A stretch of DNA of 64,000 bases. It comes from an uncultured Halobacteriovorax sp. GTDB lineage: Bacteria; Bdellovibrionota; Bacteriovoracia; Bacteriovoracales; Bacteriovoracaceae. The position numbers and the translations under genes were made by a program. Under the pieces are notes generated by a model. It was not told the origin of the DNA. It searched no databases and saw only the letters and a program-made list of their open reading frames with translations. Positions 20,534-43,648 of this stretch are shown here, one piece after another. Location: the NCBI GenBank assembly GCA_913061265.1, contig CAJXVS010000004.1:248001-312000 (forward strand), read 5' to 3'. Every line of letters starts with the position of its first letter. The stretch's first letter is position 1.

Positions 20534-22720
20534 CTAACAAAAGATATCTTTATTCTCGTTTTTTAAATCTCTTAACCCAGACCAAATAATATCACGTACT
20601 AACCATTCTGGTACTTCTGAATTTGAATCAATCCGCCCTCGTAGCTCTGTTCCGCTAATTCTTCGGTATTTGGAGAGATTATCTTCATCAATCTCTTCAA
20701 AACGCCCCTTTTCTTCTAAAAAGGCTACCTCTTTAAAAAAGAGTGGCTTGATAACAAGGTCTTCTGAGTTTTCTTTAAAGAATTCTTCGACATTAATCCC
20801 CTTATAAAACTCTCCAACACCAGCATGATCTCTACCTATAATAAAATAATTACAGCCCATATTTTGACGACAAATAGCAGTAAACAAAGCTTCTCTTGGG
20901 CCTGCGTACCTAGGATAGATAACGAGTGGCGAGAGTATGGATTTATTCTTAGGAAGAAAACCAAAGTTAATAAGCTCCTGATAAGATCGAATAATTGGCT
21001 CAGGGAGAAAATCACCCGCCTTCTTCGGTCCTATAACAGGAGAAAGTAGTAATCCATCCGCATTCACTCTTTCGAGAGCCTTCTTTTGAATAAACTCATG
21101 CCCAAGGTGAGGAACATTCCTCGTATGAAAGCCAACGACATTTACCCAACCCTTCTTATTTAAAACAAACCGCGACTCTCTTGGAGTCATTGTAACATTA
21201 TCAAATTCAGAAACCTTCTTAGCTAGAAGTGATACTTTTCCTGATAGACAAAACCTGCCTCTTTCAAAAAGCCTTTTTACACCAGGATGTGAATCATCGT
21301 CGGTTCCGTACCATTTTTTGGCCACTTCATTCAAATCAATTTGATAGCTTTCTTTTAGATCTATATAAGAATGAACCCTTCCTTCATATTTAAAATAGAG
21401 CCTCTCTCCATTCTTCGATCCCTTGAAAACCTTTTCTTCTACCTGAAGTAGCATTGGCATAGGCCACGACACTCCATTAGGCATCTTTAAGTCACTCAAT
21501 ACGCTTTCTAGCTCACTCTTTGTAAAAAACCCTTCGATGGGAGAATAAACTCCTGTACAGATTTGCTCTACATCAATTGCATCTTCTTCACTTATCTCTA
21601 TAGCGTTTGATAGATCGAGATCCTTAATACTTAATTTTTCAGGGTTAAGAGACTCAATAAGCTTTCCACCATGAGGGCTAGGTAAGAATGAGATGGCTTC
21701 ATCGAAGAAATACTTAAATGAACCTTCGGTCCCACCTTGATTTTTATATTCTTCAATAACTTTGATAACAAAAGAAACAACCTGAAGAGGATATTTACCG
21801 ACAGCGGTTTCAGCAGCAAGCACTAAGCCATTTGCTCCTTCAGTTAAAGCTTTATAAATATCATTGGCCTCTGCTCTCGTCGGCGAAGGAGACTCAATCA
21901 TAGATTCAAGTAAATTAGTTGCGATGTTAACAGGAGTTTTAAGTCTTTTAGCAGTTTCAATAATTCGCGTTTGAATTTTTGGAATACGCTCTATTGAAAC
22001 TTCTCGTGATAAATCACCTCTATCAATTAAGATTTCATCTGACATTTCAGTGATACTATCTAGGTTCTCTATTCCGCTTTTACATTCGATCTTTGAAATG
22101 ATTTTTATATCTTTACCAAGAATTTCTCTAAGATTGGTTACATCTTCTTTTAGATGGGCAAAAGAGAGTGCGACATATTCAATATTCAATTCTTTGGCGA
22201 TCTCAAAAGCTTGAAGATCTTTTTCAGAATAAGCTGGTAGAGGAAAGTCTCTTTCTATAGTGACCGCTTTGTTTTCCCCAATTTTTCCACCGTTAAGGAT
22301 CTGAATTGTGGCTCCCTCGCTATCCTTAGAAATAACCCTAGAAAGAACAGAGTTAAAATCGATACTAATAAAGTCACCAACAACAAGATCATCGACCACT
22401 GTACTAGGTACTAAATTAATAGCTACATAATCTCCAGGAACCTTTTTCTTCGATATCCTTAAGTAAGAGTTGTCATTGACGTTTATTGTTCCAGTACTAA
22501 TTTTTGATGTTCTTACTTGAGCCCCTTCAGAGTCAAAACAAATAGGAACATGTTTAGTAGAGCTTTTTCTAATATGGGCAACAAGTGTGCGAAGGTCTTT
22601 AACATCTGTGTGGGATAAGTTAATTCTAAATAAACTAACACCCATTTCACTAAGCTGAGATATAACACCTTGCCCAAAGGAAGATGGCCCTAAAGTAACT
22701 AAAATACCTGTATCTTTCAC
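20534..22720 (-). CDS. Fusion of a pyruvate kinase catalytic core and ATP sulfurylase
   Basis: The 728-residue protein joins two enzymes. Residues 1-325 are the pyruvate kinase A and B domains: RINLSH (Arg32, Asn34, Ser36), DSEGAQVRT (Asp63), SKIE (Lys210, Glu212), RGD (Asp236), ATN (Thr268) and LESMIESPSPTRAEANDI (271-288). The known catalytic and metal ligands appear kept, but the usual DTKGPEIRT is changed and the C-terminal regulatory domain is missing. Residues about 345-728 are a Sat-type ATP sulfurylase: YSPIEGFF, FHTRNVPHLGHE with His538 and His541, YAGPREALF (605-613), GRDHAGVG (629-636) and ISGTELR (688-694). The sulfurylase makes APS from ATP and sulfate. APS kinase and a sulfotransferase are encoded 10 kb away. 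The kinase part may regenerate ATP; this is inference. Confidence 0.93.
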   Translation of the reverse strand: MKDTGILVTLGPSSFGQGVISQLSEMGVSLFRINLSHTDVKDLRTLVAHIRKSSTKHVPICFDSEGAQVRTSKISTGTINVNDNSYLRISKKKVPGDYVAINLVPSTVVDDLVVGDFISIDFNSVLSRVISKDSEGATIQILNGGKIGENKAVTIERDFPLPAYSEKDLQAFEIAKELNIEYVALSFAHLKEDVTNLREILGKDIKIISKIECKSGIENLDSITEMSDEILIDRGDLSREVSIERIPKIQTRIIETAKRLKTPVNIATNLLESMIESPSPTRAEANDIYKALTEGANGLVLAAETAVGKYPLQVVSFVIKVIEEYKNQGGTEGSFKYFFDEAISFLPSPHGGKLIESLNPEKLSIKDLDLSNAIEISEEDAIDVEQICTGVYSPIEGFFTKSELESVLSDLKMPNGVSWPMPMLLQVEEKVFKGSKNGERLYFKYEGRVHSYIDLKESYQIDLNEVAKKWYGTDDDSHPGVKRLFERGRFCLSGKVSLLAKKVSEFDNVTMTPRESRFVLNKKGWVNVVGFHTRNVPHLGHEFIQKKALERVNADGLLLSPVIGPKKAGDFLPEPIIRSYQELINFGFLPKNKSILSPLVIYPRYAGPREALFTAICRQNMGCNYFIIGRDHAGVGEFYKGINVEEFFKENSEDLVIKPLFFKEVAFLEEKGRFEEIDEDNLSKYRRISGTELRGRIDSNSEVPEWLVRDIIWSGLRDLKNENKDIFC

Positions 22721-24618: not shown

Positions 24619-25689
24619 CTACAAATTAATAAAGTCATCGAGCTTATAAGTTTTTTTAGATTCTTTACCAATAAGATCGAAGTAGTTTTCAGGCCCTAGC
24701 CCTGTACCTGGTCGTTTTAATTTTAGATTCTCTTCAGTAAAGACTTCGCCTTCAGAAATATCACCACCTGCAACAATGCTTCTTCTAACTAAAGCGGCTG
24801 TTTCAAGTTCTCCATGAGATGGTATTTTCTCGCTTCTGCCGAGCATCTCTTCTGTTTTCTTTATATTAATAACTAAGTCTTTTAAGTCTTGAGGATTAAG
24901 CGAAGCCTTATGATCTGGACCAGGTAAGTCGTTATCTAGGGTAAAGTGTTTCTCTACGATAGTAGCACCTTTAGAGACAGCAATACATGAAGCCAAGAAA
25001 CCTTTTGAATGGTCCGAGTAACCAACATCAACCCTAAAGGCTTTTTGCATGGTTTCAATAACATTTAAATTGAGTTCATCATAGGGAGCTGGATAATTAG
25101 TCGTGCAGTGTAAGATCGTAACTTTTTCTTTAAGCAGATCTTGCCCTTCTGCAGTACAGAAAGCTTTAGTAAAGTTTTCGTATGAAGGCTCATCCCCATT
25201 ATTTAGATAACCAAAAACAAGAATTTCAAGAGCTGTCTGAATATCTTTAAGAGTACTCATTCCTGTAGATAAAATAACTGGTTTTTGAGATTTACCTGCA
25301 TTTAAAAGCAATAACGGGTTTGTAATCTCTCCACTTGCGATCTTAATTCGGCTCATTTTGAGATCTAATAAGAACTCTAAACTTTGCAAATCAAAAGGAG
25401 TTGAAAGAACTTCGATTCCTTTTGAACGACCGTACTCAAAGAGTTCTCTTTTTTGATCGAATGATAATTGTAGTTTCTGAATCATCTCTAGTTGAGACTC
25501 ATCAGATCCCGTTTGTTCAATTTGATATCCACATTTTGGAGTGTCTTTGGCTATAACTTCCTCAGAGAGAAAGGTCTGAAACTTCACGGCGTGGGCACCA
25601 GATTCAATAGCAACATCAATCAACTGTTTTGCCATATCAAATGATCCGTTATGATTTACTCCAGCTTCAGCAATAATATAAGTTTTCAT
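24619..25689 (-). CDS. legI: Legionaminic/N-acetylneuraminic acid synthase, NeuB family with SAF domain
   Basis: This 356-residue enzyme condenses phosphoenolpyruvate with a 6-deoxy-mannosamine-type hexose to form a nine-carbon nonulosonic acid. The TIM barrel shows AEAGVNHNG (7-15), VKFQTF (35-40), STGMSTL, VGYSDHSKG and EKHFTLD. The C-terminal SAF (antifreeze-like) domain covers roughly 295-356 (RSIVAGGDISEGEVF, LKRPGTGL). It follows legG by 11 bases. With LegB, LegC, LegG and LegF elsewhere in the window this most likely makes a legionaminic-type acid. NeuB proper (sialic acid) cannot be excluded from sequence alone, but the 6-deoxy pathway genes argue against it. Confidence 0.92.
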   Translation of the reverse strand: MKTYIIAEAGVNHNGSFDMAKQLIDVAIESGAHAVKFQTFLSEEVIAKDTPKCGYQIEQTGSDESQLEMIQKLQLSFDQKRELFEYGRSKGIEVLSTPFDLQSLEFLLDLKMSRIKIASGEITNPLLLLNAGKSQKPVILSTGMSTLKDIQTALEILVFGYLNNGDEPSYENFTKAFCTAEGQDLLKEKVTILHCTTNYPAPYDELNLNVIETMQKAFRVDVGYSDHSKGFLASCIAVSKGATIVEKHFTLDNDLPGPDHKASLNPQDLKDLVINIKKTEEMLGRSEKIPSHGELETAALVRRSIVAGGDISEGEVFTEENLKLKRPGTGLGPENYFDLIGKESKKTYKLDDFINL

Positions 25690-28151: not shown

Positions 28152-29015
28152 TTGAGTGAAGATAGAGTAGTTAGAATTATACCAAAGCTAGACGTTAAGG
28201 GACCCCATTTAGTTAAAGGGATTCACTTAGAAGGCTTGAGAGCATTAGGTTTTCCGGAAGACTTTTCCAAAAGGTATTATCAGGAAGGCGCGGATGAACT
28301 TATTTTCCAAGACGTTGTAGCCAGCCTATTTGAAAGGAACAACCTTAAAGACATTATTTCTCAAACAGCTAAGGATATGTTTATTCCTCTCACTGTAGGT
28401 GGTGGTCTTAGAAGTATTGATGATATTAAAAATACTCTAAGAGCTGGAGCAGACAAGGTCAGTATAAATACAGCAGCCTTAAAAAACCCTGCGTTCATAA
28501 AAGAAGCAGCAATGGAATTCGGGTCTTCTACAATTGTTACGACCATCGAAACGATTAAGCAAAAAGACGGCACTTACAAATGCTTTACAGATAATGGAAG
28601 AGAATACACGGATGTAAATGCAGTTGAGTGGGCTCAAGAGATTGAAGACCTCGGCGCTGGTGAGATTATGATCACCTCTGTTGATAATGAAGGCCGTGGT
28701 GATGGGTTTGATATCGAAATCACAAAAATGATTTGTGATGCTGTTAGTATTCCAGTCATTGCTCATGGTGGTGCAGGTGATTATGAAGCTATCGAAAGAG
28801 TCATCAAGGAAACTGACGTTACAGGAGTTGCTCTTGCCTCTATGCTTCACTATGACTTTATAAAGACCTATGAAAGAGATTTTTCGAAAGAAACTGAAGG
28901 TAATTTTGAATTCATGAAAAAACCTATGGAAGAAAGATTATTTGGAAAGATCAATTCCATGTCACTTCCAGAAATTAAGAATCGATTACGCGATTCAGGA
29001 ATCAAGGTGCGATAA
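28152..29015 (+). CDS. HisF-like cyclase-subunit paralogue of sugar amidotransferase system
   Basis: The 287-residue TIM-barrel protein begins RIIPKLDVKGPHLVKGIHLEG, the form seen in polysaccharide HisF paralogues and longer than the histidine enzyme's opening. It keeps the first catalytic Asp (KLDV). By eye the second HisF aspartate, in the VVVAID strand, is glutamate here (VTTIE). Such proteins pair with HisH and a PP-loop amidotransferase (WbpG, PseA types) to pass ammonia and turn an N-acetyl into an acetamidino group. It starts at TTG (28152) after AAAGGGATGA, and its stop overlaps the HisH start by one base. A role in histidine synthesis is unlikely, as no other his gene is present. Confidence 0.88.
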   Translation: MSEDRVVRIIPKLDVKGPHLVKGIHLEGLRALGFPEDFSKRYYQEGADELIFQDVVASLFERNNLKDIISQTAKDMFIPLTVGGGLRSIDDIKNTLRAGADKVSINTAALKNPAFIKEAAMEFGSSTIVTTIETIKQKDGTYKCFTDNGREYTDVNAVEWAQEIEDLGAGEIMITSVDNEGRGDGFDIEITKMICDAVSIPVIAHGGAGDYEAIERVIKETDVTGVALASMLHYDFIKTYERDFSKETEGNFEFMKKPMEERLFGKINSMSLPEIKNRLRDSGIKVR

Positions 29016-29671
29016 TGAGTAATTTCGATATAGCAATCATTGACCTAGGTCTCGGAAATCTTTTTAGTGTCCAACAAGCCTGTGAGCATTTAGGTCTAAA
29101 AAGTAAATTAACATCTTCTCCAGAAGACTTGAAAGCCGCTAAGGGAATTATCTTACCCGGTGTTGGTGCCTTTAAAAAAGCAATGGAGAACTTAAAGGAA
29201 TTAAATTTAATTCTTCCTCTTCAAGAAGAAGCAAAAAATGGGAAGCCTTTCTTCGGAATCTGCTTAGGAATGCAACTTTTATTTTCCCATAGCTTAGAGC
29301 ATGGAAAAACAGAAGGATTGAACTTAATAGAAGGTTCAGTTGAGCCTTTTAAGAAGAAACTAGATGATGGTACGAAAGTTAGGGTACCTCTAACTTCTTG
29401 GAGACAAACTAAGCTTAACGAGAATCAAGATAAAAAAGGGACTCCTCTCGAGCCCTTGGCTGACCTAGAATACATGTATTATGTTCATTCCTACTATTGC
29501 CAACCAAAACAAGATGAATTTATTTTATCAACTTCAAGTTATGCAGGAGTAAAGTATTGCTCCAGTATTTTAAAAGATAATATTTTTGGAACTCAATTTC
29601 ACCCTGAGAAATGTGGTGAAGTTGGACTCGCAGTTTATAGAAAATGGGCTGAAAAGATTAATAGGAACTAA
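29015..29671 (+). CDS. HisH-like glutamine amidotransferase subunit
   Basis: This 218-residue class I glutaminase carries the nucleophile in FFGICLGMQLLF and the His/Glu pair in GTQFHPEK near the C-terminus, so the triad is intact. It should release ammonia from glutamine and hand it through the HisF-like barrel to the sugar amidotransferase encoded next. The gene is packed between its two partners: it starts within the hisF stop (TAATG) and the following gene begins two bases after its own stop. Confidence 0.9.
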   Translation: MSNFDIAIIDLGLGNLFSVQQACEHLGLKSKLTSSPEDLKAAKGIILPGVGAFKKAMENLKELNLILPLQEEAKNGKPFFGICLGMQLLFSHSLEHGKTEGLNLIEGSVEPFKKKLDDGTKVRVPLTSWRQTKLNENQDKKGTPLEPLADLEYMYYVHSYYCQPKQDEFILSTSSYAGVKYCSSILKDNIFGTQFHPEKCGEVGLAVYRKWAEKINRN

Positions 29672-29672
29672 G

Positions 29673-30905
29673 ATGTCAGAAAATAAAACAAAAACGCTAT
29701 ATGGTTTACCTGAAGAAGTATTTTTCTGTAAGCGATGTGTAATGTCTAATCAAAGGCCTACTTCAACTCAAGAGTTCCGCCATGTTAAAGACAGTAAAAA
29801 GCAAACGATGCAGTTTGATAATGAAGGTATTTGTGACGCTTGTGTCGCTAACTTAGAAAAAGACAATATTGATTGGCACAAAAGAGAAGAAGAGCTTATT
29901 AAATTGCTCGATAAACACAGAAAAAATGACGGCTCTTACGATTGCCTTGTTCCTGGAAGTGGAGGAAAAGATAGTGTCTATCAAGCTTATGTTTTAAAAC
30001 ATAAGTATGGCATGAACCCTTTAACTATCACTTGGGCCCCCATTCTTTATACTGATTACGGCTACAGAAATTGGAAGAACTGGGTAGATTATGGAGGGTT
30101 TGATAATATCTCTTTTATGCGAAATGGAAGAGTTATGAGGCTACTGACTAAGCTCTCAATAGAAAACCTCTTACATCCTTTTCAAACATTTATCCTAGGA
30201 CAAAAGAACCTAGCCCCGAAGATTGCAGAGAAGTACGACATTAACCTTATTTTTTATGGGGAGAATGAAGCTGAATATGGAAACCCTATCGCTGATAATA
30301 CCAGTTCTTTAAGGGACAAAGCCTACTTTAGTTATAAAAGCTTAGACGAAATGTACTTAGGTGGAGTCTCAGTAAAAGAATTAAGAGAAAATTACGATGT
30401 TAGCTTAAGTGATATTAAAACGTTTCTTCCAATGGAAGTTTCCGAACTAGAGAAGACCAATATTGAAGTTCATTATTTAGGTTATTACTTAAAGTGGACT
30501 CCACAAGAAGTTTATTATTTCTCTGTAGAGAACACTGAATTTCACGCGAGACCTTTTAGAACTCAAGGAACCTATTCTAAATATAATAGCATCGATGATA
30601 AAATTGATGACCTTCATTACTATACAACCTTTATTAAATTTGGAATTGGCAGAGCAACTTACGATGCCTCTCAAGAAATCAGAAATTCTCATATCAACCG
30701 TGAAGAAGCTGTAGCCCTTGTTAAGAAATATGATGGAGAATTCCCTGATCGATATTTTTCTGAAACAATGGAATATCTTGATATAAAAGAAGAAGCCTTT
30801 ATGGAGTTGTGTAATAAAGGAAGGTCACCTCACCTTTGGGGCAAGGACTCTTCTGGAGACTGGAAGCGTAAGCACACTGTCTGGGGTGGTGGATTAAATG
30901 ACTAA
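29673..30905 (+). CDS. N-acetyl sugar amidotransferase (WbpG/PseA/PtmG family)
   Basis: This 410-residue PP-loop protein converts an acetamido group of a sugar to an acetamidino group, using ATP and ammonia from HisH. It has the zinc-type cysteines FCKRCVMSNQRP and CDACV near the N-terminus, the PP-loop PGSGGKDS, then EYGNPIADN. I place the start at ATG 29673, right after the hisH stop; a longer frame to 29586 would overlap most of the end of hisH and adds unrelated residues. The target is probably the 5-N-acetyl group of the legionaminic-type acid or the WlbABC sugar; the window contains both. Confidence 0.9.
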   Translation: MSENKTKTLYGLPEEVFFCKRCVMSNQRPTSTQEFRHVKDSKKQTMQFDNEGICDACVANLEKDNIDWHKREEELIKLLDKHRKNDGSYDCLVPGSGGKDSVYQAYVLKHKYGMNPLTITWAPILYTDYGYRNWKNWVDYGGFDNISFMRNGRVMRLLTKLSIENLLHPFQTFILGQKNLAPKIAEKYDINLIFYGENEAEYGNPIADNTSSLRDKAYFSYKSLDEMYLGGVSVKELRENYDVSLSDIKTFLPMEVSELEKTNIEVHYLGYYLKWTPQEVYYFSVENTEFHARPFRTQGTYSKYNSIDDKIDDLHYYTTFIKFGIGRATYDASQEIRNSHINREEAVALVKKYDGEFPDRYFSETMEYLDIKEEAFMELCNKGRSPHLWGKDSSGDWKRKHTVWGGGLND

Positions 30906-32392: not shown

Positions 32393-33331
32393 TTAGTTTT
32401 TAACTTCAGGCAATTCATAGTCAAAGAAATCAATTAAGTCCTTGAGGTTTTCTTTAATAAAATCTATTTCTAAATTATTTAGCGTTTTTATGGGTCTACT
32501 AACCGTCGACTTATCAATCCCTTTAAGTTCATGAAAGGAGCTATCCCCTACCCAAGACTTTCCTCTCAATGTAGGAACAAGAAGATTATCAGTAAATTCA
32601 ACATCTACATGGTCAGCAATCTTCCTCATTGTTTCTTCTGGGTTCATAACAATGTCTTCAAATCGAACAAGCATAGTATCTTCATGAAGGATTTGGTCCC
32701 TATTGTTCCAAAAGAAGTAATAGTAACTCAAGTTTTGACCAAAGTTTACAGGGTGAAGTACATTAACATCGCGGATGATTCTTCCTTTCTTTAAAGACTC
32801 CATAGCATAGTAAGGGTTTCTCATCACGAAGATCCCTTTTGACTTCTTAAGTGTCTTTTTAGTAGTTAGCATTGCTCGACCGTAGTCGCCTCCGTGTAAG
32901 AAAGCAGTCCGGTTATTGGAGTAATCTTTCCCTACGGCTTGGGTATAAGCATAAACAAGTCCATTCCAAAGGTCAGAAATGTTCTTTGCTCCTTTTAACT
33001 TATCTAAATGGGATAAGAATACTTCTCTATTCCAATCTAAATCACAAGTTATGTCATATGGTACTGTTTGTTTGTACACACCTTCGCACCAAGGAAGGAG
33101 GTCTCTATCAATCAGAGAGTTTTCAATTTCTTCTACTGGAAATGATTTAAAGATATTTACAAATAATTGCTCTAACCCTTCAGACTCGTAATTATAAGCA
33201 TGTTCCCAAAAGTATCCCTCATCAACAAAGTCACAAACACCAGGTTGTCCATCAAACAACCTAGTCAACAGAGTCCCACCTGACCTCTTTGGAGCAGAAA
33301 CAACAATCGTATTTTCTAAGAAATCAAACAT
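32393..33331 (-). CDS. PAPS-dependent sulfotransferase
   Basis: The 312-residue protein has the sulfotransferase 5'-phosphosulfate loop SAPKRSGGTLL at 12-22 and the 3'-phosphate motif RNPYYAMES at 171-179. It should transfer sulfate from PAPS to a sugar hydroxyl of the glycan, in the cytoplasm. It lies 2 bases after cysC and downstream of legF and ptmE on the same strand, so sulfate donor synthesis and use are genetically linked to nonulosonic-acid activation. No signal peptide or membrane segment is visible. The acceptor is unknown. Confidence 0.88.
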   Translation of the reverse strand: MFDFLENTIVVSAPKRSGGTLLTRLFDGQPGVCDFVDEGYFWEHAYNYESEGLEQLFVNIFKSFPVEEIENSLIDRDLLPWCEGVYKQTVPYDITCDLDWNREVFLSHLDKLKGAKNISDLWNGLVYAYTQAVGKDYSNNRTAFLHGGDYGRAMLTTKKTLKKSKGIFVMRNPYYAMESLKKGRIIRDVNVLHPVNFGQNLSYYYFFWNNRDQILHEDTMLVRFEDIVMNPEETMRKIADHVDVEFTDNLLVPTLRGKSWVGDSSFHELKGIDKSTVSRPIKTLNNLEIDFIKENLKDLIDFFDYELPEVKN

Positions 33332-33333
33332 CT

Positions 33334-33936
33334 TTATCCTTTATCTTTTTCAACTTTATTAAGAGTAAATTTTTTTAGATCTTCAAAAGACTCTTTCAAA
33401 GTGGCTGTTGTTGTATTTAAAACTAAATCTACATTTTCGGGTTCATCAAAAGGAGAATCAATTCCTGTAAAATTAGAAATCTCTCCCTTTCTCGCCTTTA
33501 TATATAACCCCTTAGGGTCCCTTGATTCACATTCCTCTAAGTCACACTTAACATAAACAAAGTAAGCATTTAAGCCTGAGAATATTTCCCTTAGAGTTTC
33601 TCTGGTAGTCTCAAAAGGTGTTATAAAGGTTCCAATCACTATATTACCAGCAAGATACATGTTCTTGGTCAATTCTCCCACTCTCCTGATATTTTCCTCT
33701 CTATCTTTTTTAGAGAAGCTAAGGTCTTTGCAAAGCCCTTGCCTAACAGTGTCACCATCTAAAACTGATGAATTAAACCCTGAAGTATTTAAGAAATAAT
33801 CTAATTCGCTGGCAAGAGTAGACTTACCTGCGCCACTCATTCCATACATCCAAATGATAGTAGGTGCAAAATTCAACTTCTCGGCTCTCATTTGAAAAGT
33901 ATATTTATGATCGAATGGCGTTAATTCAGAAATCAA
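33334..33936 (-). CDS. cysC: Adenylylsulfate (APS) kinase
   Basis: This 200-residue enzyme phosphorylates APS to PAPS. It shows the P-loop GMSGAGKST (32-40), LDGDTVRQGL (59-68), FSKKDREENIRRVGE and the APS-binding region DPKGLYIKARKGEISNF followed by TGIDSPFD. It begins with TTG preceded by AGGAGAG. No cysD, cysN, cysH or cysI is near; the ATP sulfurylase partner is the fusion at 20534-22720. Together with the next gene this points to sulfation of the glycan, not to sulfate assimilation. Confidence 0.95.
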   Translation of the reverse strand: MISELTPFDHKYTFQMRAEKLNFAPTIIWMYGMSGAGKSTLASELDYFLNTSGFNSSVLDGDTVRQGLCKDLSFSKKDREENIRRVGELTKNMYLAGNIVIGTFITPFETTRETLREIFSGLNAYFVYVKCDLEECESRDPKGLYIKARKGEISNFTGIDSPFDEPENVDLVLNTTTATLKESFEDLKKFTLNKVEKDKG

Positions 33937-42811: not shown

Positions 42812-43648
42812 ATGAAAAATCTTTCAGAATACGGATATAAGACTAACAACCGCTATTACACAATCGCTGAGATTGGAATTAATCACGGTGGTGACATGGA
42901 AGTTGCTAAAAAACTAATCGAGTCAGCTGCTAGAACAGGTGTCGACTCTGTGAAGTTTCAAACCTATATTACTGAGAAAAGAACTCCTAAGGATTCACCT
43001 ATTTTTGATATTTTAAAAAAATGTGAACTTCCTTTTGAAGCCTTTTCAGAGCTTAAGGCCTTTGCCAATAATTTAAACTTAGAGTTTTTCTCAACACCAT
43101 TTGATGAAGAAAGCGTCGATCTTTTAAATGAGATAGGATGCGACCTTTATAAGATTGCATCTTTCGATGTTGTAAATCACAAGCTTCTCACTAAAGTAGC
43201 GAAAACCAAGAAACCAATTATTCTATCAGTAGGAATGTCTAACTTAGAAGAAATCAAGACGGCTTACTCTATCCTTACAGAACAGGGAGCCCCAGTAACT
43301 CTCCTTCATTGTATTTCTGCATACCCAACGGCTCCTGAAGATGCGAACTTAGGAGCGATTGAAATCCTTAAGAAAAGTTTCGATTGTGTTATAGGACAAT
43401 CTGATCACACAGATGATATCAAAGTTCCAACATTCGCAGCCGCTATGGGCGCACAAGTCCTTGAAAAGCACTTTAAAATAGATGAAGCCATGGATTGTAT
43501 AGATGCACCTGTTTCAATTACAGAAGATCAATTGCGTCAGCTTGTTCAAAACCTAAAAGAAGTAGACAGTATCTTAGGCTCAGGACAAGTAATGTTAACG
43601 GATGCTCAAGCTCCCTGTGAACAATATAGGCGCCCTAGCTCACTATGA
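42812..43648 (+). CDS. Short NeuB-type ulosonic acid synthase lacking the SAF domain
   Basis: The 278-residue protein is a second NeuB-family PEP-condensing enzyme. It has IAEIGINHGGDMEVAKKL, DSVKFQTYI, FFSTPFDEESV, SVGMSNLEEI, IGQSDHTDD and VLEKHFKI. It ends soon after the TIM barrel (GQVMLTDAQAPCEQYRRPSSL-like tail, the last 21 residues) with no SAF domain. In NeuB proper the SAF domain of the partner subunit contacts the sugar substrate. The missing domain suggests a different, perhaps smaller or differently bound, aldose substrate. AAGGAG precedes the ATG. It is coupled by ATGA to the GNAT gene. Confidence 0.88.
   Translation: MKNLSEYGYKTNNRYYTIAEIGINHGGDMEVAKKLIESAARTGVDSVKFQTYITEKRTPKDSPIFDILKKCELPFEAFSELKAFANNLNLEFFSTPFDEESVDLLNEIGCDLYKIASFDVVNHKLLTKVAKTKKPIILSVGMSNLEEIKTAYSILTEQGAPVTLLHCISAYPTAPEDANLGAIEILKKSFDCVIGQSDHTDDIKVPTFAAAMGAQVLEKHFKIDEAMDCIDAPVSITEDQLRQLVQNLKEVDSILGSGQVMLTDAQAPCEQYRRPSSL

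Follow-up and report, generated by a model that had tools for sequence, protein, structure and literature searches.

A pyruvate kinase-ATP sulfurylase fusion as a probable ADP-recycling enzyme in a bacterial sulfation cassette

Glycolytic pyruvate kinase (PK) is usually regarded as a stand-alone central enzyme, and its occurrence in one chain with an ATP sulfurylase (Sat) raises the question of what a PK contributes to sulfate activation. We detected such a chain in a 64,000-nucleotide stretch of the genome of an uncultured Halobacteriovorax sp. (hereafter the window). The gene (20534..22720, minus strand) is a single open reading frame of 728 amino acids, with a GTG start at 22720 preceded by a Shine-Dalgarno-like stretch (AGAGG) and a stop at 20534. 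Pfam detected the PK domain at residues 2-315 (PF00224, E 1e-65), PUA_2 at 348-500 (6e-36) and ATP-sulfurylase at 508-717 (2e-62). Pfam, alignment and fold together place the PK A and B domains at residues 1-328 (21737..22720, minus strand), followed by a linker that differs among relatives (residues 329-347; 21680..21736, minus strand). Downstream are the PUA-like N-terminal domain of Sat with its PHGG motif (residues 348-500; 21221..21679, minus strand; Pfam and motif) and the Sat catalytic domain with HTRN (532-535) running into VPHLGH, GPKKAGD and GRDHAG (residues 508-717; 20570..21199, minus strand; Pfam and motifs). The closest solved relatives are the archaeal Sat of Methanothermococcus (8a8d, E 8e-84) and bacterial PKs (E about 1e-50).

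The original prediction of a PK joined to a Sat, with the regulatory PK C-domain missing, agrees with these results: no Pfam match to the C-domain was found anywhere in the 728-residue chain. This domain may not be universal in PKs, given that a shorter NCBIfam model exists (PRK06739, 352 positions). The APS kinase domain (PF01583) is also absent from the chain by Pfam, and APS kinase is encoded by a separate gene (33334-33936). An assembly join of two separate genes was considered and rejected, because the genome assembly shows the frame without interruption and other, independent assemblies contain genes of this architecture as well, among them two plasmid records that are listed as complete. 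In an AlphaFold model of the whole chain, the PK half is usable and matches PKs in the PDB (residues 1-335 compared; Z 35.7, rmsd 3.1, 330 residues aligned). The Sat half is of low confidence (mean pLDDT 68, only seven sequences), and we therefore make no claim on domain geometry or channelling.

All eight active-site residues named in the prediction (R32, N34, S36, D63, K210, E212, D236 and T268) are kept when the PK half is aligned to Escherichia coli PykF. H37, R70, K167, R234 and G235 are also present, together with two signatures, EGAQ (65-68) and DRGDLS (233-238). The EGAQ signature is shared by 17 PKs (EGAQ PKs), and R32, N34, S36, H37, D63, R70, K167, K210, E212, R234, G235 and D236 are kept in all 17 relative to E. 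coli PykF, while T268 is kept in 16 and is a Ser in the fusion from Desulfuromonadales (L005). A degenerate PK was rejected, since the catalytic residues are intact in all EGAQ members; loss of the active site across homologues, named beforehand as evidence against the proposal, was thus not what we found.

The signatures replace KGPEI by EGAQI and ARGDLG by DRGDLS in the 17 EGAQ PKs and are absent from 22 ordinary PKs. The fixed or nearly fixed differences are E65, A/S67, Q68 and D233 (rabbit positions 114, 116, 117 and 293), S238, N269 and A302; of these, E65, A/S67, Q68, D233 and N269 occur in every one of the 17 and in none of the 22 ordinary PKs. In rabbit numbering, the window PK thus carries Glu at 114, Ala at 116, Gln at 117 and Asp at 293, where ordinary PK has Ala. 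In known PKs, Glu117 with Thr113 marks K+-dependent enzymes and Lys117 with Leu113 K+-independent ones (PMC4284704). The EGAQ PKs, with Gln117 and Thr or Ser at 113, fit neither pair. Gln117 is unusual, yet it is present in some archaeal PKs (PMC4374775), so neither pair is obligatory for the family. Because Gln117 and Glu114 lie at the monovalent-cation site and Asp replaces Ala at 293, the nucleotide or ion preference of the EGAQ PKs may be shifted relative to ordinary PKs.

The Sat half was correctly recognised as Sat-type: both Sat domains (PF14306 and PF01747), both HxxH histidines (538 and 541), GxxKxxD and GRDHAG are present. One departure is that the sulfate-site motif QXRN reads HTRN. 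The Gln of this motif binds sulfate (PMC3779200); it is present in 25 of 25 stand-alone Sats examined, while every full-length fusion has HXR[NS]. The His could still donate a hydrogen bond. In the Desulfuromonadales fusion (L005:4791-7082), GWDH replaces GRDH and HTRS replaces HTRN, and the Sat activity of this protein is doubtful. In a genome labelled Nitrospirae (L006:4484-6683) the fusion is split by a frameshift, and its Sat motifs are degraded (NTKS, no GRDH) with the PK motifs intact. The Sat half of the window (20534-21690) sits on a long end branch in the Sat tree (2.1); the branch of its PK half in the PK tree is only 0.7.

The search for the same domain architecture elsewhere, suggested with the prediction, recovered the fusion in several phyla, usually beside an APS kinase gene (cysC). 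Full-length fusions were identified in genomes labelled Bacteroidetes (L003) and Ignavibacteria (L004), in Desulfuromonadales (L005), in three other genomes of the window's family (L007-L009), in two genomes of the phylum of L006, one with two copies (L080, L081 and L086), and on plasmids of the Rhizobiaceae Ensifer adhaerens and Sinorhizobium chiapasense. The large Ensifer and Sinorhizobium plasmids that carry the fusion with its APS kinase (L053 and L054) are typed conjugative. The fusion is rare, being present in 4 of 369 genomes of the window's phylum and in one of 395 sampled genomes each of the phyla of L003 and L005. The distance from the fusion to an APS kinase gene is about 2 kb or less in L003, L004, L039-L041, L053, L054 and L088-L090; no such gene was seen on the short contigs of L005 and L006. 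Sulfotransferase-family neighbours were found in L006, L040, L041, L088 and L089, and inositol-phosphatase-family (cysQ-like) genes in L003 and L089. A NeuB-like gene was recognised by eye in the window, L006, L040, L041 and L094, and none was seen at several other loci. Most fusion-bearing genomes also encode an ordinary PK, and the fused PK is therefore an extra copy.

The window genome (3.97 Mb) follows this pattern, with one ordinary full-length PK elsewhere, and a family search found the fusion to be its single Sat. Family search likewise detected a single APS kinase (CysC, 200 amino acids; 33334..33936, minus strand), which is not adjacent to the fusion but 10.6 kb away from it. Directly downstream of cysC is a gene assigned to the sulfotransferase family (312 amino acids; 32393..33331, minus strand). 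These genes lie in a surface-polysaccharide locus that also encodes glycosyltransferases and sugar-nucleotide enzymes and includes two genes of the PEP-using NeuB family (24619-25689 and 42812-43648, the second assigned by eye). Also by eye, a HisF-like, HisH-like and PP-loop trio was recognised at 28152-30905, as in amidino-sugar pathways of surface polysaccharides. Assimilatory sulfate reduction is unlikely in this genome, because its only match to the PAPS-reductase/CysD family is weak (28 bits).

The EGAQ signature is not restricted to fusions. Stand-alone EGAQ PKs without the C-domain were detected on IMG/VR contigs (L050, L051, L052 and L057), with lengths of 311-318 amino acids on three viral contigs, and no Sat match was found on the contigs of the viral EGAQ PKs. 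The PK gene of L052 overlaps a Sulfotransfer_3 gene, and that of L057 lies on an 88.8-kb contig two genes downstream of a phage kinase/nucleotidyltransferase pair (phrog_10255). A further PK relative of only 245 amino acids (L058:501-1238) has DRGDLS and LAAETA but seemingly lacks most of the B domain; some 5 kb from it is a weak match to the sulfotransferase family. PK matches in a collection of phage GenBank records were all weak (identity of about 24-31% across most of the query) and came mostly from unannotated faecal-sample or short records; they were excluded. In a bacterial contig (L087), a stand-alone EGAQ PK lies 9 nucleotides from an APS kinase gene; the contig ends 200 nucleotides upstream, and a Sat may lie beyond its end. 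In an unrooted maximum-likelihood tree the 17 EGAQ PKs form one group apart from the 22 ordinary PKs (support 100/99; 200 of 200 bootstrap trees), and the Sat halves of the fusions likewise form one group (100/98, also unrooted). As far as unrooted trees can tell, this fits a single fusion event followed by spread.

We found a second PK type (RING[AS]H, DLPGNK, DRGDLS) adjoining Sat in four other genomes of the window's phylum. It carries Lys117 and Leu113, and D233 is fixed in all four. In a search of the 369 genomes of the phylum exactly these four scored above 500 bits, and ordinary PKs followed at no more than 214 bits; no second-type PK was found in the viral contigs searched. L046/L092 carries cysC, sat and pk in that order, the first two genes overlapping. 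A single chain in L091 joins the PK to APS kinase (498 amino acids; PF00224 at 5-306, PF01583 at 332-478), with a sulfotransferase and a cysQ-like gene downstream. Both PK types are well supported as groups, each being set apart from all other sequences by a single branch of the unrooted tree. As a control, 21 stand-alone Sat loci of other phyla and 28 ordinary PK loci were inspected over flanks of about 1.5 kb; no PK was found beside the former and no Sat beside the latter.

What the PK could do for sulfate activation depends on which step releases its substrate. Sat sets free PPi and no ADP, which leaves PK nothing to act on; the ADP that PK uses is released by APS kinase. The idea in the original prediction that ATP is regenerated where APS is made is accordingly weakened, and any pull on the Sat reaction could only be indirect. 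Its companion idea, that PEP is used to recycle the ADP left by APS kinase, became the best-supported reading, with EGAQ PKs tracking APS kinase genes and the second type fused to APS kinase. Published biochemistry points the same way: APS kinase becomes trapped in a dead-end complex with APS and ADP, and an in vitro cascade yielded practically no PAPS when ADP was not removed by PK and PEP (both PMC9885120).

We consider it likely that the fusion has two enzyme activities and belongs to a cassette for PAPS synthesis and sulfation, in which the PK half would use PEP to recycle the ADP of APS kinase. The Sat half would convert ATP and sulfate to APS and PPi, the separate CysC would convert APS and ATP to PAPS and ADP, and the fused PK would turn this ADP and PEP into ATP. 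The PK step should prevent the dead-end APS kinase-APS-ADP complex and hold the ATP/ADP ratio high at the site. PAPS would then serve the sulfotransferase, the most likely acceptor being the surface polysaccharide that the locus makes. This reading builds directly on the architecture, the conserved catalytic residues, the cross-phylum group, the linkage to cysC and sulfotransferase genes, and the finding of no other Sat or APS kinase in the genome; from these we infer the PK and Sat activities, the direction of flux, the contact with CysC and the surface polysaccharide as acceptor. Recycling of ADP for APS kinase predicts that PKs should be fused to Sat and to APS kinase in sulfation cassettes, as was found. 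We give somewhat better than even odds to a broader proposal, that PKs with DRGDLS constitute a distinct family devoted to sulfation in several phyla and on viral contigs, occurring in at least two forms (Sat-fused, and Sat-adjacent or APS-kinase-fused). These PKs would power PAPS synthesis directly from PEP, and their ion or nucleotide specificity may be altered.

Other roles for the PK domain were weighed against this reading. We give a small chance to a domain that is catalytic on another acceptor or reaction of sulfation, such as a different nucleotide or the nucleotide product of the sulfotransferase. The fixed E65, A/S67, Q68, D233 and N269 of the EGAQ PKs, with D233 shared by the second type, might suit such a role, as might viral stand-alone members beside sulfotransferase-like genes with no Sat on the contig; however, the residues that bind PEP, Mg2+ and the nucleotide phosphates are retained, and the fusion of the second type to APS kinase points to ADP. 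Quite unlikely is a PEP sensor or a structural or oligomerisation module that regulates Sat with no need for turnover. The missing regulatory C-domain and the two PEP-using NeuB-family genes in the locus speak for it, and sensing of PEP in connection with NeuB had been raised as an alternative at the outset. A pure sensor would have no need of the catalytic Lys, yet this residue, the Mg2+ ligands and the PEP-binding residues are retained across phyla and viral contigs, a stand-alone PK lies beside cysC without a fused Sat (L087), and the association is with sulfation genes, all of which disfavours that alternative.

Very unlikely, too, is a cassette that serves sulfate assimilation and not glycan sulfation: although Sat and CysC are the first steps of the assimilation pathway as well, PAPS-reductase/CysD is represented in the genome only by the 28-bit match, sulfotransferase and cysQ-like neighbours recur, and the gene sits inside a polysaccharide locus. 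That the fusion is real but incidental, with operon neighbours joined by loss of a stop and no functional coupling, is most improbable. Unfused sat-pk operons do exist, but the EGAQ fusion is one group across several phyla, the second PK type is joined to another partner, CysC, and the PK-Sat association was not seen in the control loci.

If ADP recycling is the role of the fusion, a single biosynthetic pathway has apparently taken over copies of PK to regenerate its own ATP, and nature is apparently repeating a bench trick that uses PK and PEP to make PAPS. The relatives in several phyla and on viral contigs suggest that a PK dedicated to making the sulfate donor is a recurring design. The signatures can serve to find sulfation loci in bacteria and possibly in viruses. 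The fusion itself is a candidate for a ready-made enzyme with which to regenerate PAPS, and it allows energy coupling through gene fusion to be put to the test. In open-licence PubMed Central papers we found no description of a PK-Sat fusion, or of PK in any sulfate-activation composite.

The window protein shares with pyruvate kinase (EC 2.7.1.40; PF00224) the fold and the PEP, Mg2+ and nucleotide residues, and differs in the missing C-domain, the EGAQ and DRGDLS signatures and the fusion to Sat. With Sats of the PF14306 and PF01747 type, such as that of Methanothermococcus (8a8d), it has in common the PUA-like and catalytic domains and the HxxH, GxxKxxD and GRDHAG motifs, and it departs from them in HXRN for QXRN and in the N-terminal PK domain. 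In the bifunctional Sat/APS kinase (NF004040, 2gks), sulfate activation is likewise fused to an enzyme that handles one of the pathway's products, and the same holds for the diatom chain in which ATP sulfurylase, APS kinase and pyrophosphatase are fused (PMC3901274). In contrast to both composite enzymes, the partner in the window is PEP-using and, as proposed, ADP-recycling, and APS kinase is a separate gene. The chemistry proposed here is that of the bench PAPS cascade of PAPSS1, pyruvate kinase and pyrophosphatase, in which PK and PEP remove ADP and relieve APS kinase; that cascade, unlike the fusion, was built from separate enzymes (PMC9885120).
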